The position numbers and the translations under genes were made by a program. The notes below the pieces were generated by a model, which was not told the DNA's origin, did no database searches, and saw nothing but the letters and a program-made list of their open reading frames with translations. Below are positions 8,645 to 22,977 of a stretch of 64,000 nucleotides of DNA, piece by piece. The DNA lies in NCBI RefSeq assembly GCF_002970935.1, contig NZ_CP027194.1:2170001-2234000 (forward strand), read 5' to 3'. Origin of the DNA: Lactobacillus sp. CBA3606 (GTDB lineage: Bacteria; Bacillota; Bacilli; Lactobacillales; Lactobacillaceae). Numbering within the stretch: position 1 is the first letter of the stretch; each line of letters opens with the position of its first letter.

Positions 8645-8687
8645 AAAAAATGATTCAGCTGAGTAAATCAGCTGGATCATTTTTTTT
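8645..8687. terminator. Bidirectional terminator between galU and the EAL gene
   Basis: AAAAAATGAT-t-CAGCTGA / TCAGCTG-g-ATCATTTTTTTT. Long stem with an A-run on the left and a T-run on the right, serving both convergent genes. Confidence 0.9.
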
Positions 8688-9366
8688 AACGGTCAGATTT
8701 AAGCTTGAAAAGATGTGGCTTGCCGTAATAATACCCTTGGCGAAGTGGAATATTTAAATTATCCGCCAATTGATCCTCAGCGTCATCTTCGACCCCTTCA
8801 AGAATTAGACGGGCATCATGTTCTAAGGCAACATTATTCCAGAACTTTAGTTGTGCTGGAATTTCATCAGTTCGCTCTTCTTTACGGAAGTTTTGCATGG
8901 CAAATTTAATTTCTTCAGCGTAACCAAGCAATGGCTTAATATGGTCAAAGACGTTAATCCCAGTACCAACGTCATCTAGGCTAAACTCTAACCCATGTGC
9001 TTTGATTAATTCAATTTGCTTTTGCATATCAGCTAGTGAATAGGCCTCTTCATCAGGTTCTTCAGTTACTTCAACAATCACTTTAACCGGAAACAATTTA
9101 GCTTGGGCGTCAATTACGGCGGCCGCAATCGCAGGTGTTAAAAATTGCTTACGGTTGAAATTAATAGAAACTGATCCAATCTTCAAAGACAACTCACTAG
9201 CGGTTGCCTTCAATAAATCAATTTGCACATCAATTGGAATGGCTTCAAAGTTTGCTGGTAGTGTCCAACGATCTGCTTCGGTTTCACGGTAACGAATAAG
9301 CATTTCGTAACCAATCAAAGAATTATTGAATTTATTTAATTGTGGTTGAATAAAATAGCGATACAT
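8686..9366 (-). CDS. Stand-alone EAL-domain protein (candidate c-di-GMP phosphodiesterase)
   Basis: 226 residues that form one EAL domain and nothing else, so probably soluble and cytosolic. Residues matching those known to be needed for c-di-GMP hydrolysis are all visible: E21 in YEMLIRY (ExLxR), N69, E99 in VEVTE, D131 and D132 in DDVGTG, K154 in IKF, E190/E193 in LEGVE and Q210 in QGYYYGKP. The ATG at 9366 is preferred over a TTG at 9387 because AAGGGG lies seven bases before it. A paralogue is encoded at 22312, on the other side of the polysaccharide cluster. Activity is inferred, not shown. Confidence 0.85.
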   Translation of the reverse strand: MYRYFIQPQLNKFNNSLIGYEMLIRYRETEADRWTLPANFEAIPIDVQIDLLKATASELSLKIGSVSINFNRKQFLTPAIAAAVIDAQAKLFPVKVIVEVTEEPDEEAYSLADMQKQIELIKAHGLEFSLDDVGTGINVFDHIKPLLGYAEEIKFAMQNFRKEERTDEIPAQLKFWNNVALEHDARLILEGVEDDAEDQLADNLNIPLRQGYYYGKPHLFKLKSDR

Positions 9367-9420
9367 ACACTGGCCCCTTACGTTCAAATTATGTTCAGTA
9401 AAATTACCCCTAAGTTACAT

Positions 9421-9429
9421 AGTATACCA
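9421..9429 (-). promoter_or_regulatory. Extended -10 promoter for the EAL gene
   Basis: On the minus strand the sequence reads TGGTATACT (a TGn extended -10) about 55 bases before the start codon. No good -35 box is visible. Confidence 0.45.
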
Positions 9430-9505
9430 AATAATGATTTAGTGGAATGCGAAGGCCTCGCCTTTTTTCAATTGAGCGATGGGTTTAAGCAAGGGTGGGA
9501 ATGGT

Positions 9506-9519
9506 TGAAAGCGATATCT
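9506..9519. promoter_or_regulatory. cre-like site in the EAL/nox divergent region
   Basis: TGAAAGCGATATCT matches the catabolite-responsive element TGWAANCGNTNWCA at 13 of 14 positions. It lies between the minus-strand EAL gene and the plus-strand nox/exopolysaccharide genes. No well-formed promoter overlaps it, so function is uncertain. Apart from this, the roughly 300-base gap 9367-9663 holds only the EAL -10 element and a lone TATAAT at 9596-9601 that may serve nox. Confidence 0.4.
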
Positions 9520-9663
9520 AAACTTTTTTTACGTCGATATTAAAATAATGTGGGTGTTTTAACAAATCCGGATATAAATTAATTGAAAAAGCGGTTATAA
9601 TTAAGTTGGTCTGTATCAACGTATTTGTGACAAATAAATTAATTCTGTGGAGGAATATTTAGT

Positions 9664-11062
9664 ATGAAAATTGTAATTGTTGGGTGTACCCATGCCGGAA
9701 CAGCGGCAGCAAATCAAATTTTAAAGAATCATCCAGAATCAGAAGTGACGATTTATGAACGTAACGATAACATTTCATTCTTATCTTGTGGGATTTACCT
9801 TTATTTAGGTGGTAAGGTGAATAAGCTAGAAGATATGTTTTATGCGTCACCAGAAGAATTGGAAGCAGCGGGCGCTAAAGTCAAGACAAAGCATAATGTG
9901 CTTAAAATTGATGCAGCCGCTAAGACGATGCAAGTTGCAGATATGGAAACAGGTCAGGTTTTTGATGACCATTATGACAACTGGGTCATCCGTTGCTGTG
10001 CCACCAATCTTTGGGATTGATGAATCGAAAGTTCTCTTGTGCAAAACGTATGAACAAGCACAGGAAATTTATAAAACCGCTAAAGATAACAAACGGATTG
10101 CGATTGTTGGGGCTGGTTATATTGGGACTGAATTATCTGAAAGTTATGCCAATACCAATCATGAAGTAACCTTGTTCCAATCACATGATCAGATCTTAAA
10201 TCACTATATTAGCAAAGATATGTCTGACCAAGCGGTTGACTTATTGAAGCAACATGGCGTTAAAGTGCTCTTAAATCATCGGGTTACCGCATTTACTGGG
10301 AACGATAAAGGCGAGTTAGTCATTGAAACTGCCCAAGGCGATTTTGTGGCCGACTTAGCGATTGTTGGGACTGGCTTTATTCCAACGACTGAATTATTAC
10401 GTGGTCAAGTGGACATGGACAAACATGGTGCCATCATTATCAATGACTATGTTCAAACGTCTAATCCTGATATTTATGCTGCGGGCGATTCTTGTGTGGT
10501 TAACTTTAACCCAACGGGCCGGTCAGCTTATACGCCATTAGCAACGAATGCGGTACGGCAAGGGGCCTTAGCTGGGGTTAATATCTTTGGCAATATCCAA
10601 CCTTACATGGGAACGCAAGCAACGTCTGCCATGCAGTTATTTAATTACACGTTGGCGACAACCGGGTTGACTTATGAAGTTGCGAAAATGAGTAATATGC
10701 CCGTTAAACGAGTTGTCTTTGATGGTACATGGCGGCCAAGTTATATGCCAAGCACAGATCCATTGAGAATTGAATTAACTTATAATCCTGAAAATCGGCA
10801 AATCTTAGGTGCCCAGTTCTGGAGTCCTCACGAAGTTGCCCAGTCAGCCAATACGGTTTCAGTAGCTATTCAAAATGGGAATACCATTGATGATTTAGCC
10901 TTTGTTGATATGCTATTCTCACCAAACTTTGATGATCCCTTCAATTATTTGAACTTAGTCGCTCAAATGGCGGTTGACCAAGAAGCTAAGGCTGGCAATG
11001 CACAAGGGCGGATTACAGCTATTGGTGATTGGGCTAAATTAAACAATCCTGAAAACAAGTAA
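9664..11062 (+). pseudogene. nox: NADH oxidase, frameshifted
   Basis: Flavoprotein NADH oxidase of the pyridine nucleotide-disulfide family, split between two frames. Frame 1 from 9664 gives the FAD-binding N-terminus (VIVGCTHAGTAAA) and redox cysteine (FLSCGI) and stops at 10020. The rest, from about IMTTGSSVAVPP with the NADH-binding motif GAGYIGTEL and the second FAD motif IYAAGD, runs in frame 2 to 11062. Homologues read YDKLIMTTG at the junction; here YD and IM are read from the same bases, 9971-9979, in different frames. Either a real loss of function or a sequencing error. AGGAGG precedes the start. The polysaccharide genes begin 22 bases after the remnant. Confidence 0.85.
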
Positions 11063-11083: not shown

Positions 11084-12220
11084 ATGCATAGCAAGTGGTT
11101 AGGGTGGTGGCTATTATTGCCGCTAGTGTTGCTAGGATTAAGTGGTTGTAAAAAAGAAGTGACGGTTAAGCCCCCAACGCAGGCACCGACTGCTTTTAAA
11201 CTGAAAAGTCAGTATGCGACTACGACGGATCAACAACAGGCGCGTTCATTAGTTAAGTTCATTAAACGTGGACTTTTGACGCCGCAAGGGTTGTATACCA
11301 ACTATGTGGATACGGTGAAACGATCGTCTGGGGCCGCTACGGGGCATGAATTATTGAGCGAATCTGCTGGGATGTGGTTACAGTATTTAGTGACAACTAG
11401 TCAGTGGCACCAGTTTCGAACCTTTTATCAAGCCACTAAAAAAACATTCGATGATCATGGTCAATTTAGTTATCGCTATGACCCCCGTTCTAAAAAACGT
11501 TATCGCGTTAATGCCACGCTGGATGATCTACGGATCATTCGCGCGCTATTAGCGTACGATCAAATGCATCATACGACGCATTATCGGCAAGAAGCGACCG
11601 CACGCTATCAAACCTTAATTAATACCAGTATTAAGGATGGTCATCTGGTTGATTATTATGATATGAAGACTGGTAAAGCGGCCACAACGGGGAGTCTAGC
11701 TTACTTCGATTTACAAACATTAAAATATTTTGAACAAAACAGTAAAGCCGGTCGTACAGCCTATCAACATCAATTAACGGTGGTCAAAGGTGGTTATCTA
11801 GGCGATGTATTCCCGCTATATGCTAAGAACTATCAATGGACGACTAGCCAGTATAGTGATGCATCGCTTAATACCTCTGAAGCCTTGGAAACGTTATTGC
11901 ATTTGGCCGAAGTAGGTCAACTTAAAGCAACCAGTCAACACTGGTTAGTACAACGATTGCAACAACGTAATTTGGCTAATGGTTATACGACAACTGGCAC
12001 GGTTAGTGTTAACGGTGAATCAGCGGCCAATTATGCATTAGCGGCCATGATTTTTGCAGCGGTACATGATCGACCACATTATCAACAAGCAATGCGGCAA
12101 GTCTGGCGGTTACAAGTGACAACCTCAACGTCAGCCATATTTGGCGGCATTGGTGATGCGAAAACGCACCAGGCGTACTCTTACAGCAATTTAACTGCTT
12201 TGAATGCCGCTTTTAAATAA
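11084..12220 (+). CDS. Lipoprotein, GH8-like glycoside hydrolase (PssZ-like)
   Basis: 378-residue predicted lipoprotein: N-terminal helix followed by lipobox LSGC with Cys22, so anchored outside the membrane. The remainder looks like an alpha/alpha-barrel glycoside hydrolase of the GH8 type. E93 in LLSESAGMW matches the position of the general acid, and D147/D148 in ATLDDLRIIRAL matches the acidic site after it. In Listeria the GH8-like PssZ trims the c-di-GMP-dependent exopolysaccharide. Here the gene is first in the polysaccharide run, 22 bases after the broken nox. No promoter was found directly upstream, so it may be read from the nox promoter. Substrate unknown. Confidence 0.7.
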   Translation: MHSKWLGWWLLLPLVLLGLSGCKKEVTVKPPTQAPTAFKLKSQYATTTDQQQARSLVKFIKRGLLTPQGLYTNYVDTVKRSSGAATGHELLSESAGMWLQYLVTTSQWHQFRTFYQATKKTFDDHGQFSYRYDPRSKKRYRVNATLDDLRIIRALLAYDQMHHTTHYRQEATARYQTLINTSIKDGHLVDYYDMKTGKAATTGSLAYFDLQTLKYFEQNSKAGRTAYQHQLTVVKGGYLGDVFPLYAKNYQWTTSQYSDASLNTSEALETLLHLAEVGQLKATSQHWLVQRLQQRNLANGYTTTGTVSVNGESAANYALAAMIFAAVHDRPHYQQAMRQVWRLQVTTSTSAIFGGIGDAKTHQAYSYSNLTALNAAFK

Positions 12221-12245
12221 AGGCGATGGACAGAGCTGAGAGGTA

Positions 12246-13739
12246 ATGAATGTGACTAAGTTAAAGCGAGGGCTGATTAAGGCCGGCAAGGTTTTCCAAA
12301 AAATACTGCCACCGCCACTATTAGCAATGCTAATTTGTGCGATTTTGGCTAGTTATATTAATTTTATGCCACCAATTAATGGGTTAGCAGATAATGGGGA
12401 CTATTACCGCGCCATGTATAGTAACGGTATCTATAAACTTTTAGGGACGCATTATAGTTATTTTGACTTCGTCACGCAGAAATTTGGATTGATGAAATAT
12501 TATAATGACTATCAATCAGTTAACTTTTCGTCGCAACCATTATTTGTGAAGCTAGCGATTGGCTTAAATAAATTATTTTATAGCCAAACAGTCTTTGATA
12601 TTCGCTTTATGGGTTTAGTGAATACTGGCTTTTATTTGGGTAGTATTTATTTATTAACAGATGCACTGACTTATCCGGCTAAACGACCACGTAATTATTT
12701 AATTGCTGGCTTAGTTGTGTTTGTGTTCGGGGATTCGTCGTTTACCTTGTATTTCAATTCGTTTTTTGCCGAACCGCAAATGTTAAGCATGACGTTATAT
12801 TCGTTTGCAGCGGTGCTTTTATTAGCCCGGCACCGTTATCGCCGTCGTTGGCCACTATTACTGCTGTTCGGTGTGAGCACCATGTTACTAATTTCGAGTA
12901 AGTCACAAAATGCGCCGTTAGCATTAAGTTATGTGGTTGTTGCATTAGGGTTATTATTTTTACCAAACTTTAAAGCACAACGCCTAATTATTTTTGCTGG
13001 TATGGCTGGCTTGCTCGTGGTTGGGGTGCTGACGTATAAGTTGATTGGGTCAAGTTTTACGCAGATTAATCAGTACCAGGCTTTTTCACATGGGGTGTTG
13101 ACCCAAACTGGCGACCCAAGTACCGATTTGCGCAAAAGCGGTATTGATGAGCAATATGCCCTCATGAAAGATCAAGATTATTATGCAAAGCAGTTTGCAC
13201 CGATTGATGCTTCTGGAAAGTATGTGAAGAAAAATTTACTGACTAAGTATAATTTTAGTTGGATTGCAACATATTATGCGAAGCATTTGCCACAGTTTGG
13301 CAAGTTGTTAGACTTAACGGCGGCAGATGCCATGATTACGCAGGTCAAGGCGGTTGGTGATTATACTAAAGCCTCGGGCGCGCCGGCTGGCAAACAGGTC
13401 ACTTTCTTTACGGGATTTAGTTCAATTGCGGGCGCCTTCTTCCCGCAAAAATATGCTTTTAATTGTTTATTAGCCGTGGCTTTAGCAATGGTATATGCCG
13501 TGGGCTTTTATAATGATTTGAAAGCTCATGCCAGTGAAGGGGTGCTCCGTTTCTTTCTCGTTTTAGGGTACCTGACGATTTTTATTTTTGTCCCGATTAT
13601 TTCAATTGTTGGTGATGGCGATGCGGACCTGGCAAAACACATTTTTATGGTACCGGTCAGCATTGATTTGATTTTCTTGCTAGTTGTATCGGATATTTTA
13701 AATCATCGGTTGTGGCACGCTTATCATGAAGGGACGTAA
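12246..13739 (+). CDS. Multi-pass membrane protein, GT-C-like (WsfD/PssA-like)
   Basis: 497-residue protein with about ten membrane helices. Just after the first helix is an extracytoplasmic acidic motif, NGLADNGDYYRAM (D49, D52), in the place where GT-C glycosyltransferases carry their catalytic aspartates. A large outside loop lies at about 275-385. Best guess is a membrane glycosyltransferase that decorates the polymer with a sugar from a lipid carrier, as suggested by similarity in layout to WsfD-type proteins. The gene is 25 bases after the GH8-like gene and just before an exported DUF2334-like protein. The exact function is not certain. Confidence 0.6.
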   Translation: MNVTKLKRGLIKAGKVFQKILPPPLLAMLICAILASYINFMPPINGLADNGDYYRAMYSNGIYKLLGTHYSYFDFVTQKFGLMKYYNDYQSVNFSSQPLFVKLAIGLNKLFYSQTVFDIRFMGLVNTGFYLGSIYLLTDALTYPAKRPRNYLIAGLVVFVFGDSSFTLYFNSFFAEPQMLSMTLYSFAAVLLLARHRYRRRWPLLLLFGVSTMLLISSKSQNAPLALSYVVVALGLLFLPNFKAQRLIIFAGMAGLLVVGVLTYKLIGSSFTQINQYQAFSHGVLTQTGDPSTDLRKSGIDEQYALMKDQDYYAKQFAPIDASGKYVKKNLLTKYNFSWIATYYAKHLPQFGKLLDLTAADAMITQVKAVGDYTKASGAPAGKQVTFFTGFSSIAGAFFPQKYAFNCLLAVALAMVYAVGFYNDLKAHASEGVLRFFLVLGYLTIFIFVPIISIVGDGDADLAKHIFMVPVSIDLIFLLVVSDILNHRLWHAYHEGT

Positions 13740-13743
13740 CCGT

Positions 13744-15312
13744 ATGCACAAACTAAGAGGTTGGCGATGGGGGTTGCTAGTGCTAGGCGTGTTGTTGGGA
13801 TTTGGTCTAGTGCGTCCAACGGTCCATGCTGCAACGAAAGTTTTATTGGTTTATGATTCTCAAAATAGGGCCACTCATGGTGAAAATAAAATTGCGACGG
13901 TCCAACGGATTTTAGCGGGACTAAATATTGACGTTAAAACAGTTGCAGCAGCGGATTATCAGGCTGGTCAGTTGCAGGCTTATCAAGGCGTGGTGACGAT
14001 GATTAATTGGCCGCAGACGGATTTAAATAATGCTGCGTTTACACATGATCGCCAACAATTTAAAGGGACCAAGCTACACATTGGTCGCAATCTAACGGCG
14101 ACCGAAGCCCGAGACTTAGGTGCTCAGCCTGTAAAATTATATCATCAGCAATTTACGTTACAGAATTCAGCGGGTACAATTCATCAGCTCCTCCCGTTTA
14201 GTGAGACGATGACTGTGTTAACCAAGTTACCGAAAGAAGCTCAGTCAGTTGGTGTTTTGAAAACCCAAGCGGTCACGGCGCGTACCTATTCGTATGGAAC
14301 CATTGTGAATCATCAGGGTTACTTACCGTATTTAGCCACACGTGGCTATAGTTTTGTGGTGGCAGCGCAAATGATGGCCCAATTGTTTGGCCACCGTGGT
14401 CATTATCAACCGTTGCTGACGATTACGAAAGTCACGCCGTATTCTAATCTGACCTTATTAGCGCACTTGAGTCAGACCCTTTATGAACAAGGCATTCCTT
14501 TTGCGGTTAGTACCACTAGTGTGAGTGAAAATGGTCACTTCAAAGCGTTTCAACGTTTTGCAAAAGTATTACGATTAGTTGAAAACCGTGGTGGGGTAGT
14601 TTTCTTAAAGACACCAACGGTCGGTGGGGTGACTGCCAGCAGTGGTGGCAGTCTGAGTCAATTAATGGATGATGAGTTGGTTCAATTAGCACAGAACCAG
14701 GTTTTCCCGGTTGGTATCAGTACATCGATTTATTGGAATCAAGATGCTGTTTATCGTCAATACGCTTTGAAAAAGGCCTCGCATGTTTTATTTTTGCCGA
14801 ATCCGGCGAATTTAACGTATGCTAAACAAGATAATCAGGCGACTCACTTTAAACAAAGCCTGTATGGCTTGGATGCAACGTCCTTGGCTACGGTTACTAG
14901 TGGATCGGATTTAGGAAAACTAGCCGTTGATTTTGCCATACCAACGGCGATAACGGTTACGATGCCAAATAGTTCCCGTAGTTTACGAACGTTAGAGCGG
15001 CGGATTCAGCAGTTACCGTATCAATGGTTTAATCCGGTGACGCAAGGTTGGCAGACGAAAATCACCAGTGGTACCGCCACTTTTGAGTACCGGCAAGGGG
15101 CGTACTTCTTGAATGGCACTCAGACTACGATTGCAGCCAGTGCCACGCGGACAAAGACGTTGGCGCCAGTCAAACCGGCTGAGAGTTGGATGAATCGGTT
15201 CTTTAAAGTTCAAGGGAGTGTTTTGTTAATCTTTTTCGGGATTACTTTCGTGATTTTTATTGGCTTCATTTGGTTTGGTCGGAAGATTTATTTGAATATG
15301 TTTAAACGTTAG
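13744..15312 (+). CDS. Exported DUF2334-like protein, degenerate polysaccharide-deacetylase fold (PssB-like)
   Basis: 522 residues with a signal peptide (cleavage near VHAATK), a long extracytoplasmic region and a C-terminal membrane helix plus short basic tail, so tethered outside the cell. The section LLTITKVTPYSNLTLLAHLSQ, later EQGIPFAVSTTSV, resembles DUF2334 deacetylases, in which this first strand normally carries Asp metal ligands (R-x-E/D-D-V). Those are replaced by T-K-V here, so catalysis is doubtful. ATG at 13744 is preferred to 13726 since AAGGGA lies before it. In context it would modify or guide the nascent polymer at the membrane surface. Confidence 0.6.
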   Translation: MHKLRGWRWGLLVLGVLLGFGLVRPTVHAATKVLLVYDSQNRATHGENKIATVQRILAGLNIDVKTVAAADYQAGQLQAYQGVVTMINWPQTDLNNAAFTHDRQQFKGTKLHIGRNLTATEARDLGAQPVKLYHQQFTLQNSAGTIHQLLPFSETMTVLTKLPKEAQSVGVLKTQAVTARTYSYGTIVNHQGYLPYLATRGYSFVVAAQMMAQLFGHRGHYQPLLTITKVTPYSNLTLLAHLSQTLYEQGIPFAVSTTSVSENGHFKAFQRFAKVLRLVENRGGVVFLKTPTVGGVTASSGGSLSQLMDDELVQLAQNQVFPVGISTSIYWNQDAVYRQYALKKASHVLFLPNPANLTYAKQDNQATHFKQSLYGLDATSLATVTSGSDLGKLAVDFAIPTAITVTMPNSSRSLRTLERRIQQLPYQWFNPVTQGWQTKITSGTATFEYRQGAYFLNGTQTTIAASATRTKTLAPVKPAESWMNRFFKVQGSVLLIFFGITFVIFIGFIWFGRKIYLNMFKR

Positions 15313-15334
15313 TAGGAAAGGCTAAAGGTTGACT

Positions 15335-16582
15335 ATGTTAGATGGATTTTTATTTGTCGCGATTGTGGCCATTTGGGGAATTTTAGTCATCAATGTCATT
15401 TTAACGATTGCCGGTTATGCTAATTACTTACAAAAAAATCGGCAACCAGCGCCAGAACTACCGGCTGAGGTTCCTTTTGTTTCGATTATGGTGCCTGCGC
15501 ATAACGAGGGCATCGTGATTGTCAAAACACTCCAAGCCTTGTTGAATTTTGATTACCCACATGATCGCTACGAGATCATTATTATAAATGATAATTCAGA
15601 CGATAATTCAGCGGAATTATTGGCTCAAACCCAGCGATTGTATCCTAAAAGGCATCTAAAAGTGATTAATACGGATCAGATTACTGGCGGGAAGGGTAAG
15701 TCGAATGCGTTGAACATCGGCTTAAAACAGGCTCGTGGGTCGTTGATTTCCATTTATGATGCGGATAACACGCCACAAGTCAGTGCGTTACGCTATCTGG
15801 TGGCAGAATTAATGGGTGATCCACAGCTGGCGGCGGTGATTGGTAAATTTCGCACGCGTAATAAGAATGCGTCCTTGTTAACACGATTTATTAACATTGA
15901 AACGCTCTCATTTCAATGGATGGCACAGGCGGGACGAGAAAAGTTATTCAAGTTATGTACGATTCCTGGGACGAATTACGTCATCCGGCGTGATATTCTA
16001 GAAAAAATTGGTGGCTGGGATGTGAAAGCGTTAGCCGAAGATACTGAAATCAGCTTTCGTATTTATCGGATGGGTTACCGTATCCGGTTTCAGCCCTTAG
16101 CCGTGACTTGGGAGCAAGAACCGCAAACGTTAGATGTCTGGTTTCATCAGCGGACTCGCTGGGTGAAAGGCAATATTTATGTGATTCTAAAAAATGCTAA
16201 ATTATTGTTTACTAAAACCGGCCGACCGATTCGGTTTGATTTACTTTACTTCTTATCAATTTATTTCTTATTAATGACGTCATTAATTTTATCAGATACG
16301 ATGTTTGTGTTATCAGTTGCAGGGGTCGCACATTCTGATTTAGTCGGTTTTAGTAATGGGTTATGGTTAATGGCAGTGCTCACTTTTGTGATCAGTACCT
16401 TTGTGACGATTACAACGGAAAAAGGCGAAATGACGTTTGCTAATTTGATGATCATTATCTTTATGTATCTTGTTTATAGTCAGATGTGGTTAGCCGTAGC
16501 AACCTATGGGATGGTGGGATATGTTCGTGAGCAAGTTTTTCATCAACAAGCAAAATGGTACAAAACCAAACGGTATCAGTAA
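15335..16582 (+). CDS. Processive family 2 glycosyltransferase, BcsA/PssC-like synthase
   Basis: Membrane polysaccharide synthase of 415 residues. An N-terminal helix (residues 3-27) is followed by a GT-A domain with INDNSDDNS, the DxD motif YDADN (D142, D144), the acceptor motif LAEDTE (E235, D236) and QRTRW (Q272, R275, W276), which marks processive synthases. Three or four helices follow. Unlike BcsA it ends without a PilZ domain, so c-di-GMP must act through another subunit. ATG at 15335 has AAAGG seven bases upstream. The downstream BcsB-like gene overlaps by 62 bases. The sugar donor cannot be told from sequence. Confidence 0.85.
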   Translation: MLDGFLFVAIVAIWGILVINVILTIAGYANYLQKNRQPAPELPAEVPFVSIMVPAHNEGIVIVKTLQALLNFDYPHDRYEIIIINDNSDDNSAELLAQTQRLYPKRHLKVINTDQITGGKGKSNALNIGLKQARGSLISIYDADNTPQVSALRYLVAELMGDPQLAAVIGKFRTRNKNASLLTRFINIETLSFQWMAQAGREKLFKLCTIPGTNYVIRRDILEKIGGWDVKALAEDTEISFRIYRMGYRIRFQPLAVTWEQEPQTLDVWFHQRTRWVKGNIYVILKNAKLLFTKTGRPIRFDLLYFLSIYFLLMTSLILSDTMFVLSVAGVAHSDLVGFSNGLWLMAVLTFVISTFVTITTEKGEMTFANLMIIIFMYLVYSQMWLAVATYGMVGYVREQVFHQQAKWYKTKRYQ

Positions 16583-18668
16583 ATGGGTCATCGGACTACT
16601 CTTGATGGTGGCGCTCAGTAGCAGCGTGCTGTTAGCACCAACTTTAACGGCGACTGCTGCTAAAAAGTCGACCGATTTAACTTATACCCAAGCATTTCAG
16701 AATACGACCACGACGCTGTCGGGGACGTCCGTTGAAGCAAACATGTACTTTATAAAAATGGATTATTGGGACGTTAAAAAAGCGACCATTAACCTTAATT
16801 TTCAAATCTCACAGTTGGCGAATCGCGCAACATCAGACCTAACCGTTTCATTAAATGGCACTAAATTTTATTCTTTCCGGCCTGAAAAGAAGACTGGGTT
16901 ACAGACCAAGTCGATCACGGTGCCATTACGACTATTACAGGGTGAAAATCAACTGAAAATTAGTGGGCAAATCTTGAATCAAGCTGGTCAAAAAGACTAT
17001 CAGTTGGCGCAAACGCCGGCTAATTGGTTAACTATTTATGATGGCGCGACTGTCAACTTTCAATATCAATTAAAAGCGCCAACGACAGCCATCAAGTCAT
17101 TTTATGCCCACTTTTCAGGGACGGACACGATTGCTAATGAGAACTCTGTTATTACGGTGCCCAAGCAAGCTAGTAATGCGGAATTAACGGCGGCGATGTA
17201 TGCCTTATCTGGCGAAGCGCGAACAATTGCGACTGAAACATCGCAGATTCAAGTGACAACCGCCGATAATGCCACGGCCAAAGCGGCTGACTATCAATTG
17301 GTATTGGCGACGTATGATCATTTGCCAGCACAATTCAAAGCTAAGCTGACTCGGGCACAATTGAAAAACCGAGCGGTGATTAAGACTGTCTACACTGGTG
17401 GCAAGCACTATCTAATTGTGACCGCCTTAACGGGACAACACTTGAAGCAAGCGAGTCGCTTTATTGCGAATCAGGAACTGATGCAAGAAACCGAAGCAGC
17501 AACCGAATATGTGGATGATCAAACCGCCACGGTAACATCGGAGTTGCAATATGACGGGAGTTATCAGTTAACGACGACTGCGGATCAATTGACGGGTGCT
17601 AAACATCAGTCCAGCACTTATTTTGTTAATTTACCGGTTGATCGCACGAATGCGGATGGGTCTAAAATCCGCATTCATTTTCGATATTCGAAGAATTTAA
17701 ACTTTAAGCGAGCCTTGGCAACCGTTTATTTGAACGGCAGCCCGTTAGGCAGTAAGAAGCTCAGTGCGGCCCGTGCGGATGATGACAGCCTGACGGTAAC
17801 GTTGCCAAAAGGCCAAGCATTAGGCCATAGCTTTACAATTCGAGTTGGATTTGATTTGGAAATGGCAGATCAGCGTAGTTCAGATAATACGCAAACCCCA
17901 TGGGCAACTATCGAAACTGATTCTAAAGCGATGATTAAGTCGAAGCCAGTGACGGATGTGTTATTTACGAATTACCCGAACTTGTTTTTGAAAAATGACA
18001 CGTTCAACAATGTGGTCGTGGTACGACCGAAGACATTAACCAGTTATGATTATCAGACGTTATCGAATATTTTTAATTTGATTGGTAATTATGCGCAAAG
18101 TAACACTGGTAGTGTCCGGTTTTACACCCATCAGCCAAGTCAGTCAGTCTTGAAAACGAGTCAGGTGATTGCCTTTGGCACGCCAACTCAAAATGAATTC
18201 ATTAAGCGACTCAATCATAAGTTGTACTTTAAATACGGTAAAGGCCAGCAAGGATTTGTATCTAATGAAAAGTTAAGCATTGAACGCACGTATGGTGAAA
18301 ATATTGGGACTGCCCAGCTATTGCGGTCACCATATAATGCCAAGACAGGCTTGTTAGTGGTTACCGCCAAGCAATCGAGTGATGTGTACCGTGCGTCGAC
18401 ACAACTCAACTACCAACGTAACATTGCCCAGTATTCAGGTGACGCAATTGTGGTTGACCATGATAATAATCATTATAATTATCGGTTTAAGAAACATAAG
18501 TCGGTGACGGCTGACAATGTCACTGCCAAAACGGTGCTGTCAAAGAATTCACAGTTAGTCGTTTATTTGGGAATCGCGTTAGTTGGGCTTATTTTGATTG
18601 GGTTAGCTGCCTTTTTGATTTTACGGAAGCATGGGTTAACCGTACGAAGGGGGTCGCACCATGAATGA
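16521..18668 (+). CDS. BcsB-like membrane-anchored synthase partner (PssD-like)
   Basis: 715 residues: N-terminal signal/anchor helix (WVIGLLLMVALSSSVLLAP), two large extracytoplasmic beta-rich halves with BcsB-like carbohydrate-binding and flavodoxin-like modules (for example VSLNGTKFYSF, and VYLNGSPLGSKKL in the second half), and a C-terminal helix (YLGIALVGLILIGLAAFLIL) with basic tail. BcsB proteins accept the polymer as it leaves BcsA and are needed for synthase activity. Start uncertain: ATG 16521 with GGTGGGAT before it, or ATG 16506; both overlap the synthase gene heavily. The next gene begins inside its last codons. Confidence 0.78.
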   Translation: MFVSKFFINKQNGTKPNGISKWVIGLLLMVALSSSVLLAPTLTATAAKKSTDLTYTQAFQNTTTTLSGTSVEANMYFIKMDYWDVKKATINLNFQISQLANRATSDLTVSLNGTKFYSFRPEKKTGLQTKSITVPLRLLQGENQLKISGQILNQAGQKDYQLAQTPANWLTIYDGATVNFQYQLKAPTTAIKSFYAHFSGTDTIANENSVITVPKQASNAELTAAMYALSGEARTIATETSQIQVTTADNATAKAADYQLVLATYDHLPAQFKAKLTRAQLKNRAVIKTVYTGGKHYLIVTALTGQHLKQASRFIANQELMQETEAATEYVDDQTATVTSELQYDGSYQLTTTADQLTGAKHQSSTYFVNLPVDRTNADGSKIRIHFRYSKNLNFKRALATVYLNGSPLGSKKLSAARADDDSLTVTLPKGQALGHSFTIRVGFDLEMADQRSSDNTQTPWATIETDSKAMIKSKPVTDVLFTNYPNLFLKNDTFNNVVVVRPKTLTSYDYQTLSNIFNLIGNYAQSNTGSVRFYTHQPSQSVLKTSQVIAFGTPTQNEFIKRLNHKLYFKYGKGQQGFVSNEKLSIERTYGENIGTAQLLRSPYNAKTGLLVVTAKQSSDVYRASTQLNYQRNIAQYSGDAIVVDHDNNHYNYRFKKHKSVTADNVTAKTVLSKNSQLVVYLGIALVGLILIGLAAFLILRKHGLTVRRGSHHE

Positions 18669-19512
18669 TGATCAACGGGCTGCCGTGTTTGCAGACGTCT
18701 ATTTATTATTATTCTTAGCCTTGTTTAGTGTAACCGCAGTGTTAATGACCTTAACCGCCAATCTAACCCTCAATACGATCTATTTAGGGTTGACGGTCTT
18801 TATGATTTTAATGACGTATTTTTTTGGAGCGGTTACTGGATTGGTTGCCAACCTTTTATTTATCTTTGCGCAAGCAGTGGTGATGATTTATATTAATGCA
18901 ACCCATCAAGCTGAAATACCAATGATTATGATTTTTTGGTTAATCATGCCGTTACTTTTATCGGCGACGTTTTATGCGATGACCCGGCGGTTAGCGGCCT
19001 TACAAGCGGCCAATGCCAAATTACGGGGCGATATTATGCAGCGTGGGGCATTCGATGAACGAACGGATTTACGGACGACGGTGGCGTATATTCAAGATGC
19101 TCAAGTATTTACAGAAACGAATCGCCGGTTCCAATTACCAGTGACGACGGTGATTGTCCGAATTCGTTACTTCAACGAAATCAAACGGATGATGAGTGAT
19201 CAACAATTTTCAGATCTATTGCGATTGACTTCCGATACAATTACCGGCGCGACTCGCGATAATGACATTACGTATTCATTGGATCAAGAGAATCCAACTT
19301 GGGCGATTTTATTATTTTCAGATGTTGCAGGGTCAAAGATTGCTGCTAATCGAATTAAAACGAGTTTTGACAAGGGCCTACAAGCTTCAGTTAGTTTGAG
19401 TTCGTTAGAAATTTTGTTAGTCGTGGGGATTGCTAGTTGGGACCCGGAAAAAATGAAGAGTCCCTATGATTTAATGAACACAGGGATTAAAGAAACTGAA
19501 TACGATGTGTAA
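18661..19512 (+). CDS. Membrane protein with degenerate GGDEF domain, probable c-di-GMP receptor (PssE/PelD-like)
   Basis: 283 residues: four membrane helices in the first 108, a short linker helix (RRLAALQAANAKLRGD), then a GGDEF-type fold. The active-site motif is replaced by DQENP (208-212), so it should not make c-di-GMP. An inhibitory-site motif RxxD (R199, D202, read RDND) remains exactly five residues before it, the canonical spacing. This is the pattern of PelD and Listeria PssE, which bind c-di-GMP and switch on polymer export. ATG overlaps the BcsB-like gene by eight bases with AGGGGG upstream. Receptor role is a strong inference from motif spacing and neighbours. Confidence 0.8.
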   Translation: MNDDQRAAVFADVYLLLFLALFSVTAVLMTLTANLTLNTIYLGLTVFMILMTYFFGAVTGLVANLLFIFAQAVVMIYINATHQAEIPMIMIFWLIMPLLLSATFYAMTRRLAALQAANAKLRGDIMQRGAFDERTDLRTTVAYIQDAQVFTETNRRFQLPVTTVIVRIRYFNEIKRMMSDQQFSDLLRLTSDTITGATRDNDITYSLDQENPTWAILLFSDVAGSKIAANRIKTSFDKGLQASVSLSSLEILLVVGIASWDPEKMKSPYDLMNTGIKETEYDV

Positions 19513-20628: not shown

Positions 20629-20860
20629 AGGACATGTTTCGAGATGACTGATGACAAATAGTCACGGCAGGAAGTCACAAATTCTGGTTCTAAAATATCT
20701 GTTGTTGGTAATTGAGTGAAAACTTGATTACTGGCAGCGGATATTTTTGTATGTATTTTATTTGTAGTATATTAAAAAAGTGCAGAAAAAGAGATATAGT
20801 CGGCAGACTTATATATCTATCCACTACCACATTTCAAGAGAAAGAAGCGACTATACCCCT

Positions 20861-22117
20861 ATGAGTAAGGATACTAAATTTTTATTGGGAATTAAAGACC
20901 AAAACATCAAAAAAGTAACTATTATCAATAACATTCAAGAAAAAGGACCAATCGAGGTTCAAGCAGTTTTGGACTATCGTCCAAAAGCGTGTCCAAAGTG
21001 CGGCGTGCTCAACAGAAAAAGCATCATTCGTTATGGCTGGCGGCAAGTAAAAGTTAAGCTACTTAGGAGCAGTGAGCGAGACGTTTTACTGCATCTAAAG
21101 AAACGGAACTTTAAGTGTAAAGTGTGCAACAGCTATTTTTTAGCAGCAACCAGTTTAACGCAACGGAATCATACAATCTCTAATAATGTTCGTATCGCTT
21201 GCTTAGAGAAGCTGAGTGAACCGGTGACCATGACACACATTGCTCACGAATTGAATATTTCAAGTAGTACAGTTGTCTCAATGTTAAAGACCTACGAACG
21301 TGATTTATTGACCCATTATGATTGGTTGCCAAGTGTCATTTGTATGGATGAAATCAAGTCAACCAAAGATGCCAATGGTTCGATGAGTTTCGTCTTTATG
21401 GATGGAGAAACTCATCAATTTATAGATATCTTAGAATCGAGAACACTTGCTAGTCTTGAAAAATACTTTAACCGTTATACGAAAGCAGCCCGAATGGGTG
21501 TCAAAGTTATTGTAACGGATATGAATTATACGTACCCTGAGCTAGTGTCAGTATTTCCAGAGGCCATAATCGTTACTGACCGGTTGCACATCGTGAAATC
21601 GGCGGTGGTAGGCTTTAATCAAACTCGTATTCGCGTCATGAAACAATTTGCTAAATCAAATATTAAATATAAAGCACTAAAGAGATATTGGAAACTACTC
21701 TTAAAACCTAACGAGAAACTTGATATCAAGAACTATAGGCACTATTCCTTTATTGCCGGACGCCATACCCAAAATCAAATTGTTGAAGAGATGCTGGAAT
21801 TTGATCCAGATTTAAAACGAGCCTATGACGCCTTGCATACACTCAGAAGCGCCGTCAAATATCGAGATTTACCCCGTTTAAGACAGGTTCTCGATGCTAG
21901 TAATCAATTTCCAGAGGAAATGGAGAAACATTTTTTGAAACTACGAGATAGCCAAGAGTCGATTGAGAACGCACTTAGATATCAATATTCAAATGGTCCT
22001 TTGGAAGGGACAAATAACAAAATCAAAGTTTTAAAACATACCGCCTATGGTTTTGGAAATTTCAATAATTTCAGATTGCGTATACATTTAATGTTCGCAT
22101 TAAAAAAAGGTGCTTAG
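20861..22117 (+). CDS. ISL3-family transposase
   Basis: 418 residues from ATG 20861; the frame continues upstream to 20780, but the homologous start is MSKDTKFLLGIKD. A zinc-finger N-terminus (CPKCG ... CKVC), a helix-turn-helix (HIAHELNISSSTVVSML) and a DDE domain are visible: D in CMDE, D in VTDMNY, and E in SNGPLEGTNNKIK with the family ending TAYGFGNFNNFRLRI. Length and motifs are complete, so the transposase is probably active. The gene ends within a hairpin at the right end of the element. Confidence 0.93.
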   Translation: MSKDTKFLLGIKDQNIKKVTIINNIQEKGPIEVQAVLDYRPKACPKCGVLNRKSIIRYGWRQVKVKLLRSSERDVLLHLKKRNFKCKVCNSYFLAATSLTQRNHTISNNVRIACLEKLSEPVTMTHIAHELNISSSTVVSMLKTYERDLLTHYDWLPSVICMDEIKSTKDANGSMSFVFMDGETHQFIDILESRTLASLEKYFNRYTKAARMGVKVIVTDMNYTYPELVSVFPEAIIVTDRLHIVKSAVVGFNQTRIRVMKQFAKSNIKYKALKRYWKLLLKPNEKLDIKNYRHYSFIAGRHTQNQIVEEMLEFDPDLKRAYDALHTLRSAVKYRDLPRLRQVLDASNQFPEEMEKHFLKLRDSQESIENALRYQYSNGPLEGTNNKIKVLKHTAYGFGNFNNFRLRIHLMFALKKGA

Positions 22118-22137
22118 CTGTTGCGCGGCTAAGCACC
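22109..22137. terminator. Hairpin at the IS right end
   Basis: GGTGCTTAGC / GCTAAGCACC perfect 10-bp stem, overlapping the transposase stop codon. The A-run to its left makes it a rho-independent terminator for minus-strand transcription entering the IS; on the plus strand it lacks a T-run. Confidence 0.65.
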
Positions 22138-22225
22138 AATAAAAAGATTACCAACAACAGTTGACAGAGAACCCAAATTCTTGCCATGACTATTTTTTTG
22201 CGTGATTTTGTTGGTCGCATTTTAG

Positions 22226-22277: not shown

Positions 22278-22311
22278 ATTAGACCCTTAACTCACAGTGA
22301 AGGAGGCAACC

Positions 22312-22977
22312 ATGCCAACGTATAAATATTTTGCCCAACCCATTAAAAATGTCCTGACGAACCAGACTATTTTGTATGAATTATTATTACGACAATGGCA
22401 TGAGGCGCACCAAAATTGGGGAATTCCAACTGATTTTGAGCTCACTCCAGCGGCGGTTATCCAGTTGTTGGATGTGGCTGTTAAGGAATTAAAGTACCAC
22501 AATGTTTCAATTAACCTGACCCAAAAACAATTTGCCGATCCGGTCATGCAACGTGACTTGAATGCGTATGTAACTGAAAATTTATTGCCACGCCAATTAA
22601 CCATTGAATTAGTCAGCACGCCGGATTTAGCGGTATTAAAAGCTATGAGCCGAGATTATCGCTCGGCAGGGGTGCTAATTGCGTTTGACGATGTGGGCTC
22701 GGATAATTTGTTGGCAGACATTGCCCCCATGTTACCGTATGCCAACACGATTAAGTTTGCATTGCAAAATAGCCGTCAAAATGGTCAGACCAATTTGAAA
22801 ACAGCAATTTCAGAGCTCCGTTTTTGGTTTGAAAAAGCGGAAGCCGAGCAAATGCTGTTTACCTTTGAAGGGATTGAAACGGCTGCTGACTTGCAATTGG
22901 CACATCACTTGCGGATCACAAGGGGACAAGGGTATTTGTTTGCCAAGCCACAGTTACCCGCGACATTTAATCGTTAA
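22312..22977 (+). CDS. Stand-alone EAL-domain protein (second candidate c-di-GMP phosphodiesterase)
   Basis: 221 residues, a single EAL domain paralogous to the minus-strand protein at 8686-9366. Catalytic positions are retained: E23 (YELLLRQ), N68, E99, D126/D127 (FDDVGS), K148 (IKF), E186/E189 (FEGIET), Q206 (GQGYLFAKP). Differences from canonical enzymes are loss of the second Glu in the E-x-x-E strand (IELVS) and an altered loop after the DD pair (DDVGSDN in place of DDFGTG). Hence activity is likely but less certain than for the paralogue. ATG 22312 has AAGGAGG before it. Own promoter with a cre site. Confidence 0.8.
   Translation: MPTYKYFAQPIKNVLTNQTILYELLLRQWHEAHQNWGIPTDFELTPAAVIQLLDVAVKELKYHNVSINLTQKQFADPVMQRDLNAYVTENLLPRQLTIELVSTPDLAVLKAMSRDYRSAGVLIAFDDVGSDNLLADIAPMLPYANTIKFALQNSRQNGQTNLKTAISELRFWFEKAEAEQMLFTFEGIETAADLQLAHHLRITRGQGYLFAKPQLPATFNR

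Follow-up and report, generated by a model that had tools for sequence, protein, structure and literature searches.

Surface polysaccharides are part of the reason why food and gut lactobacilli are valued, and signaling through cyclic di-GMP (c-di-GMP) in these bacteria is little studied. A stretch of 64,000 nucleotides from Lactobacillus sp. CBA3606 (contig NZ_CP027194.1, positions 2,170,001 to 2,234,000; hereafter the window, by whose own numbering all positions are given) raises the question of whether such a bacterium carries a polysaccharide machine that answers to this messenger. Six genes at 11084-19512 had been interpreted in a preliminary description, made from the sequence alone, as a polysaccharide operon of the Pss type that includes its own c-di-GMP receptor, and gene content, fold, motifs, and orthology with Listeria genes support that interpretation. 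We consider it highly probable that the operon is a synthase-dependent exopolysaccharide (EPS) machine of the Pss/Yda kind, working under receptor-bound c-di-GMP. Papers are cited by PMC identifier, in each case for an excerpt. The remark in the preliminary description that c-di-GMP signaling in lactic acid bacteria has received little study is a fair one: as excerpted, PMC6123363 concerns another operon, and PMC13297897 reports only the measurement of c-di-GMP, in L. plantarum.

Gene content and probable product of the operon

The six open reading frames (ORFs) all lie on the plus strand, are open throughout, and are separated by 25, -14, 16, -77, and -8 bases, in agreement with the tightly packed or overlapping genes first described. 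Genes 2 to 6 correspond one for one, and in the same order, to pssA-E of Listeria (record L102), as scored by phmmer against a database of the 12 window proteins. The WsfD-type PssA and the DUF2334 protein PssB are orthologous to genes 2 and 3, which stand upstream in Pss order (301 and 98 bits); the glycosyltransferase family 2 (GT2) protein PssC and the BcsB-type PssD are orthologous to the pair formed by genes 4 and 5 (637 and 367 bits); and the receptor PssE is orthologous to gene 6 (152 bits), which supplies, within the operon, transmembrane helices and a degenerate GGDEF domain with an RxxD motif. The likeness to pssA-E plus pssZ had originally been drawn from the kinds of parts; it extends to orthology in order for genes 2 to 6 and to a match of gene 1 with the PssZ structure.

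Gene 4 (15329 to 16582, plus strand) encodes a processive-type GT2 polymer synthase of 417 amino acids, recognized by Pfam and NCBIfam models and by alignment; this ORF starts at a TTG, and an in-frame ATG at 15335 was the start used previously. Residues D88, D144, D146, E237, and D238 and the Q, R, R, and W of QRTRW (274 to 278) are invariant in 13 aligned sequences, and the roles that we assign to these motifs (D88, D144/D146, ED237-238, and QRTRW) are our assumption. A grouping with nonprocessive enzymes had been named as an outcome that would undermine the preliminary description; processive-type residues are present, and the best solved-structure matches are cellulose synthases. Gene 5 (16506 to 18668, plus strand) encodes the BcsB-like export partner, a PssD ortholog of 720 amino acids with a C-terminal transmembrane helix (PF03170, E = 7.9e-38), and its true start may lie 3' of the first ATG. 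In-frame stops within the BcsB matches of one genome family (f62) were not counted as breaks; judged from an annotated Listeria gene, they were taken as the ordinary gene end, with the model running past it.

The BcsB match, together with PgaC/IcaA as the best NCBIfam GT2 model for gene 4 and cellulose synthases as its best solved matches, could also be taken as signs of a reduced bcs or ica/pga system, with cellulose or poly-N-acetylglucosamine (PNAG) as its product. However, the GT2 scores fall far under the curated cut-offs, a Pfam search gave no PilZ match on the synthase, and gene 4 is 66% identical to PssC, whose product is N-acetylmannosamine (ManNAc) with galactose (PMC7479077, PMC5422440), so we regard cellulose or PNAG as a quite improbable product. 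Our best guess, by analogy with Listeria, is a ManNAc-rich, galactose-branched chain. All 22 carriers tested have an Epimerase_2 gene, of the kind that ManNAc requires; its presence makes such a polymer possible, although it is no proof of one.

Gene 2 (12246 to 13739, plus strand) encodes a multi-spanning membrane protein of 497 amino acids that scores 489 bits against the NCBIfam WsfD model NF051875 (cut-off, 80), a model that Listeria PssA passes as well. It is presumably of the GT-C type, as first labeled, and is a candidate side-chain hexose transferase. The 528-amino-acid product of gene 3 (13726 to 15312, plus strand) is a DUF2334/PelA-like protein, exported and membrane anchored, identified by family profile and structural model. 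On its own it has no convincing Pfam match; 16 of 42 family members match DUF2334 (PF10096) at an E value of 0.1 or less (best, 1.2e-4), and PssB matches at 5.3e-5, which is below the curated cut-off. The predicted structure (predicted local distance difference test [pLDDT], 88.5) lies nearest to PelA (9cgy, E = 1.4e-9, with a TM-score of only 0.37), followed by human NDST1, a deacetylase-sulfotransferase. An active metal-dependent deacetylase is unlikely, because across residues 200 to 450 of 42 sequences the only D/E/H/C columns conserved at 60% or more are 286 and 340, and neither is a histidine.

Gene 1 (11084 to 12220, plus strand) encodes a lipoprotein of 378 amino acids with the lipobox LSGC (Cys22). 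The preliminary description had called it GH8-like, which does not hold: no GH8 model matched in Pfam or NCBIfam, where the protein has no match at all, and the structures it does match belong to glycoside hydrolase family 126 (GH126). These are Clostridium perfringens CPF_2247 (3ren, E = 5.5e-36) and 6r2m (E = 4.9e-7), the latter being Listeria PssZ, which CAZy places in GH126 (PMC7479077). Four of the five CPF_2247 residues listed in that paper were compared with gene 1, and Glu84, Asp136, Arg139, and Tyr194 align with the identical residues Glu93, Asp147, Arg150, and Tyr207. By the 6r2m match and these aligned catalytic residues, the operon has a dedicated hydrolase of the PssZ/YdaJ type (the YdaJ sequence lay outside the comparison), and the protein is predicted to cut the polymer.

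Putative receptor, diguanylate cyclases, and the I-site

Gene 6 (18661 to 19512, plus strand) encodes the putative c-di-GMP receptor, identified by profile, motif, and model. Four N-terminal helices precede a GGDEF fold whose signature, in place of the GG[DE]EF of an active diguanylate cyclase, reads DQENP (residues 208 to 212), and an intact RxxD I-site (R199 to D202) stands five residues before it. Searched on its own, the protein gives a weak match to the GGDEF profile that stays under the curated cut-off (E = 0.006); of 43 family members, 35 reach an E value of 0.01 or less, the best being 3.7e-8. Structure prediction, which the preliminary description had set as the test of its membrane protein with a ruined GGDEF domain, gives the GGDEF fold: the model (pLDDT, 87.4) matches GGDEF structures from an E value of 7.3e-10, and the ruined signature sits on the expected hairpin. 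A C-terminal YDV, within the last nine residues, is found in 87 of 94 receptors of at least 200 amino acids, those of Listeria and Enterococcus included, and is missing from the receptors of Ligilactobacillus aviarius and of one Lactobacillaceae genome (G017).

If the I-site reads c-di-GMP, its fate should be seen alongside the enzymes that make the messenger. The CBA3606 genome (2.56 Mb in 4 contigs) encodes four intact GGDEF proteins with GGEEF, a fifth GGDEF match that is a GdpP-type c-di-AMP enzyme, and six EAL matches. Among Lactobacillaceae genomes in which the receptor was matched (carriers), 48 of 49 have a strong GGDEF match (best E value of 8.5e-30 or less), compared with 62 of the 202 noncarriers, strong and weak matches having been separated by inspection of the match list; the remaining carrier, G017, is 87% complete and has a match only at 6.5e-6. 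Where the genome bears a cyclase, 44 of 50 receptors retain RxxD; where it has no strong GGDEF match, none of 12 does (62 receptors in 63 rows, with L082 cut and with the remnants L076 and L081 and the fragment L140 set aside beforehand). The I-site therefore seems to be maintained where c-di-GMP is made, a pattern that supports a c-di-GMP-reading I-site in the CBA3606 receptor.

We infer activation by c-di-GMP, the identity of the polymer, and what each outer protein does, and the machine would work as follows. The four GGEEF cyclases would raise c-di-GMP and EAL enzymes, two of them flanking the operon, would lower it; the dead-GGDEF membrane protein would bind the messenger at its RxxD I-site and thereby switch on the synthase, the GT2/BcsB pair. 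The GT2 protein would polymerize sugar at the inner face of the membrane and push the chain out, where the BcsB-like and PelA/DUF2334-like proteins, anchored outside, would guide it. The WsfD-type protein would probably add hexose branches outside, and the GH126 lipoprotein would trim or release the polymer.

Several results weigh against this account or narrow it. The Fisher p value for the I-site/cyclase table (8.6e-9) ignores kinship; on the GT2 tree the match comes down to two or three independent pairs, which cannot reach significance, and given that tree the p value should not be leaned on. The six receptors that lack RxxD in cyclase-bearing genomes comprise five of one genus (g21), whose genomes have three to eight GGDEF matches each despite the loss, and that of G793 (5% contamination). 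Strong GGDEF matches (E value of 2.1e-16 or less) also occur in 62 of 202 Lactobacillaceae noncarriers, with weaker ones in 10 more, so c-di-GMP has other targets there. The operon can be dispensed with, because a genome 95% identical in DNA (G211) has lost it, with scraps of both ends remaining. The GT2 protein reaches only 179.6 bits against the PNAG model PgaC/IcaA (curated cut-off, 422.3) and 99.8 bits against the cellulose synthase model CelA (curated cut-off, 699.1). Finally, Epimerase_2 was matched in 11 of 14 control genomes too and the family serves other purposes as well, so the sugar cannot be told from its presence.

Within the Secundilactobacillus type, to which the g21 receptors belong, the receptors of L064, L066, L068, L072, L074, L203, L209, L211, L213, and L218 have lost the RxxD arginine. 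The loss does not extend to all of Secundilactobacillus: the motif is intact in S. collinoides and in both copies from S. similis, and it reads RxxN in S. folii.

The other side of the I-site comparison is formed largely by enterococci. In the Enterococcaceae-type family f4, a BcsB-like gene is present in 10 of 105 genomes (a fragment in G869) and a GGDEF match (E value of 0.001 or less) in 18 of 105, and no genome is in both lists (0 of 10 carriers). GGDEF searches of the carriers E. termitis, E. phoeniculicola, and E. moraviensis and of two L. aviarius genomes, also carriers, likewise gave no match, and Enterococcus faecalis is described as lacking a diguanylate cyclase in the excerpt of PMC13229355. 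No full-length Enterococcaceae-type receptor that we saw retains RxxD, nor do the receptors of L. aviarius and G017. The remainder of the enterococcal receptor sequence nevertheless persists, and all 9 full-length Enterococcaceae-type receptors in the I-site set still have the YDV end. The Enterococcus-type genomes of L103, L137-L139, L147-L152, and L215-L217 have the operon, no GGDEF match, and no RxxD in the receptor (for L103, in a search of a 747-kb record only).

That these bacteria, and the two L. aviarius genomes, keep the receptor protein without RxxD, in enterococci with its YDV end intact, fits the view that a polymer is made with the last protein as a structural subunit only and that c-di-GMP does not control it. 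For CBA3606 we find this improbable: the strain has cyclases and an intact RxxD, the motif persists in most receptors where cyclases exist, and both Listeria PssE, a required I-site c-di-GMP receptor (PMC4125290), and Bacillus subtilis YdaK, which needs RxxD residues R202 and D205 for EPS (PMC5422440), act through c-di-GMP. L. aviarius shows the same I-site loss as Enterococcus but has lost the YDV end too, and its receptor may therefore be drifting rather than structural. On the GT2 tree L. aviarius is placed among the non-Lactobacillaceae rows, at an unresolved fork with enterococci, which makes transfer of the operon from a source of that kind possible.

For the CBA3606 operon we retain control by receptor-bound c-di-GMP as the probable reading. 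For Enterococcus, E. faecalis included, the chances seem evenly balanced that the operon is a naturally uncoupled machine, an undescribed polymer system in which the receptor is an obligatory subunit of the synthase, locked on or answering another cue. The series from coupled (most Lactobacillaceae carriers and Listeria) to apparently uncoupled (Enterococcus and L. aviarius) offers a way to ask what a degenerate-GGDEF subunit does beyond binding c-di-GMP.

Distribution and neighborhood of the operon

The operon is not peculiar to CBA3606, an idea that we rejected: a match to the receptor turned up in 49 of 251 Lactobacillaceae genomes, from 17 of 40 genera (G211 and G227 among them being remnants), and relatives occur in other genera. 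From 46 stretches fetched out of 48 receptor matches outside the strain's own genome (G050 and G165 were left out), 40 have the WsfD-type, DUF2334, GT2, BcsB, and receptor genes in the same order, some of them split, so the five-gene block is not due to chance; of the remaining 6, two are remnants, three are cut by contig ends, and one has a receptor alone. In the 40 ordered blocks, GH126 comes first in 31 and follows the receptor in 3, and in 6 we did not see it. The lone receptor gene (L080, genome G086) has RxxD but is unaccompanied by synthase genes within its fetched 20 kb, and its genome has a cyclase match. The operon is thus a defined candidate target of c-di-GMP in many genera of the Lactobacillaceae.

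Out of 337 GT2 relatives confirmed in a scan of genome contigs, we used the best 80 for counts of named loci, loci cut by contig ends included. These 80 belong to Lactobacillaceae, Paenibacillus (with one Bacillus sp. record), and Enterococcus; the block order is intact in 78 and cut in 2. GH126 opens the operon in 67 and follows the block in 3, and it was not seen in 10. Among them the GT2 gene is 92% identical in L. nangangensis and L. daowaiensis and 89 to 91% in five other Lactiplantibacillus, with very near records possibly left out, and on this basis we take CBA3606 to belong to Lactiplantibacillus. E. faecalis carries all six genes; its record has BcsB split into two pieces, and the near-identical genome G854 has the gene unbroken. 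The operons of the four Listeria-type loci examined lack a GH126 gene, whereas three f5 family genomes and one f2 genome have one there. A viral-contig scan with the BcsB-like protein gave 8 pattern matches and 0 confirmed ones, and thus no sign of carriage by phage.

The same comparisons bear on whether the operon is a relic undergoing decay in CBA3606. In two same-genus genomes, all that is left between the same neighbors is GH126 and receptor scraps (L081 of G211, at about 11820-12004, and L076 of G227, at 12721-13393), and the oxidoreductase gene just upstream of the operon is broken by a 14-base gap. All six ORFs, however, are open and near the lengths of their relatives, with catalytic motifs present, and decay strikes us as a most doubtful reading of the CBA3606 locus, next to that of a working operon.

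The broken gene, NADH-oxidase/CoA-disulfide-reductase-like and now in two ORFs (9664 to 11062, plus strand), ends 21 bases before the GH126 gene and is an accessory neighbor of the operon; the gap lies at 9979 relative to the close relative L081, and the family call comes from an intact relative (L155), below curated cut-offs. Beyond it, a stand-alone EAL phosphodiesterase (8686 to 9387, minus strand; PF00563, E = 1.8e-16) has intact-looking residues, in an ExL variant, at the alignment positions that we take to be catalytic, and it likely removes c-di-GMP, to judge from those residues. A second stand-alone EAL phosphodiesterase (22297 to 22977, plus strand; PF00563, E = 2e-17, and alignment) lies on the other side, beyond trxB and an ISL3-type element (20686-22173). 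This element is absent from L081, whose matches flanking the site overlap by 8 bases, as for an 8-base target duplication.

An EAL gene paired with the NADH-oxidase/CoA-disulfide-reductase-like gene stands beside the operon in 20 of the best 80 named loci, in five genera. EAL neighbors were counted above 150 bits, leaving five weaker ones uncounted (34 to 109 bits: L155, L200, L202, L214, and L219), and every counted EAL gene adjoins the oxidoreductase gene. The pair is recorded in the window (8686-11062) and at L155-L162, L191, L192, L200, L203, L204, L206, L208, L209, L211, L212, L213, and L218, and the oxidoreductase gene overlaps GH126 in L191 and L206. A redox link to c-di-GMP is possible. 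An Rfam scan of the window brought only a tRNA family to threshold, so no known c-di-GMP riboswitch was seen, and a promoter scan gave 26 promoter-like sites, fewer than the mean of 31.3 in shuffled sequence.

Comparison with known systems

PelD has a degenerate GGDEF domain. The Pel system, like the CBA3606 operon, has its c-di-GMP receptor gene within the operon (PMC7112194), and PelA is the best solved fold match of the DUF2334-like protein, but Pel uses PelF and PelG (PMC7112194), whereas the synthase here is a membrane GT2 protein with a BcsB-like partner. Within the Lactobacillaceae, the gts operon of L. acidophilus also ties a BcsA-like GT2 protein to c-di-GMP, yet it is another type of operon, consisting of gtsA, gtsB, and pdeB only, with a degenerate EAL protein as the receptor (PMC6123363).

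The yda operon of B. subtilis (ydaJKLMN) resembles the CBA3606 operon in having a glycosyl hydrolase gene (ydaJ) inside it, glycosyltransferase genes, ydaL, and, in YdaK, a four-transmembrane degenerate-GGDEF receptor whose RxxD precedes the signature by five residues (PMC5422440, PMC13274460). As described in these excerpts, from which the comparison is drawn, it differs in having five genes with the receptor gene second and no WsfD-type gene named. Listeria pssA-E shares the order of genes 2 to 6, and its PssE has the same RxxD and C-terminal YDV as the CBA3606 receptor; in Listeria, however, pssZ (lmo1913) belongs to the dgcA-dgcB-pdeC operon (PMC4125290), whereas in CBA3606 the GH126 gene comes first in the pss-like operon, which, unlike pssA-E, is flanked by EAL genes. 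The preliminary description was thus right that a hydrolase inside the operon departs from Listeria, but we rejected this as a novelty, as ydaJ (PMC5422440, PMC13274460) and the operons of most named relatives have the same arrangement. Among the open-licence papers listed in our searches, none names the operon for Lactobacillaceae or Enterococcus in its title or the opening of its abstract, which does not prove its absence from the literature. The kind of operon is already known from Listeria and B. subtilis; what is new is the association of the I-site with cyclases across carriers and a possibly uncoupled enterococcal form.

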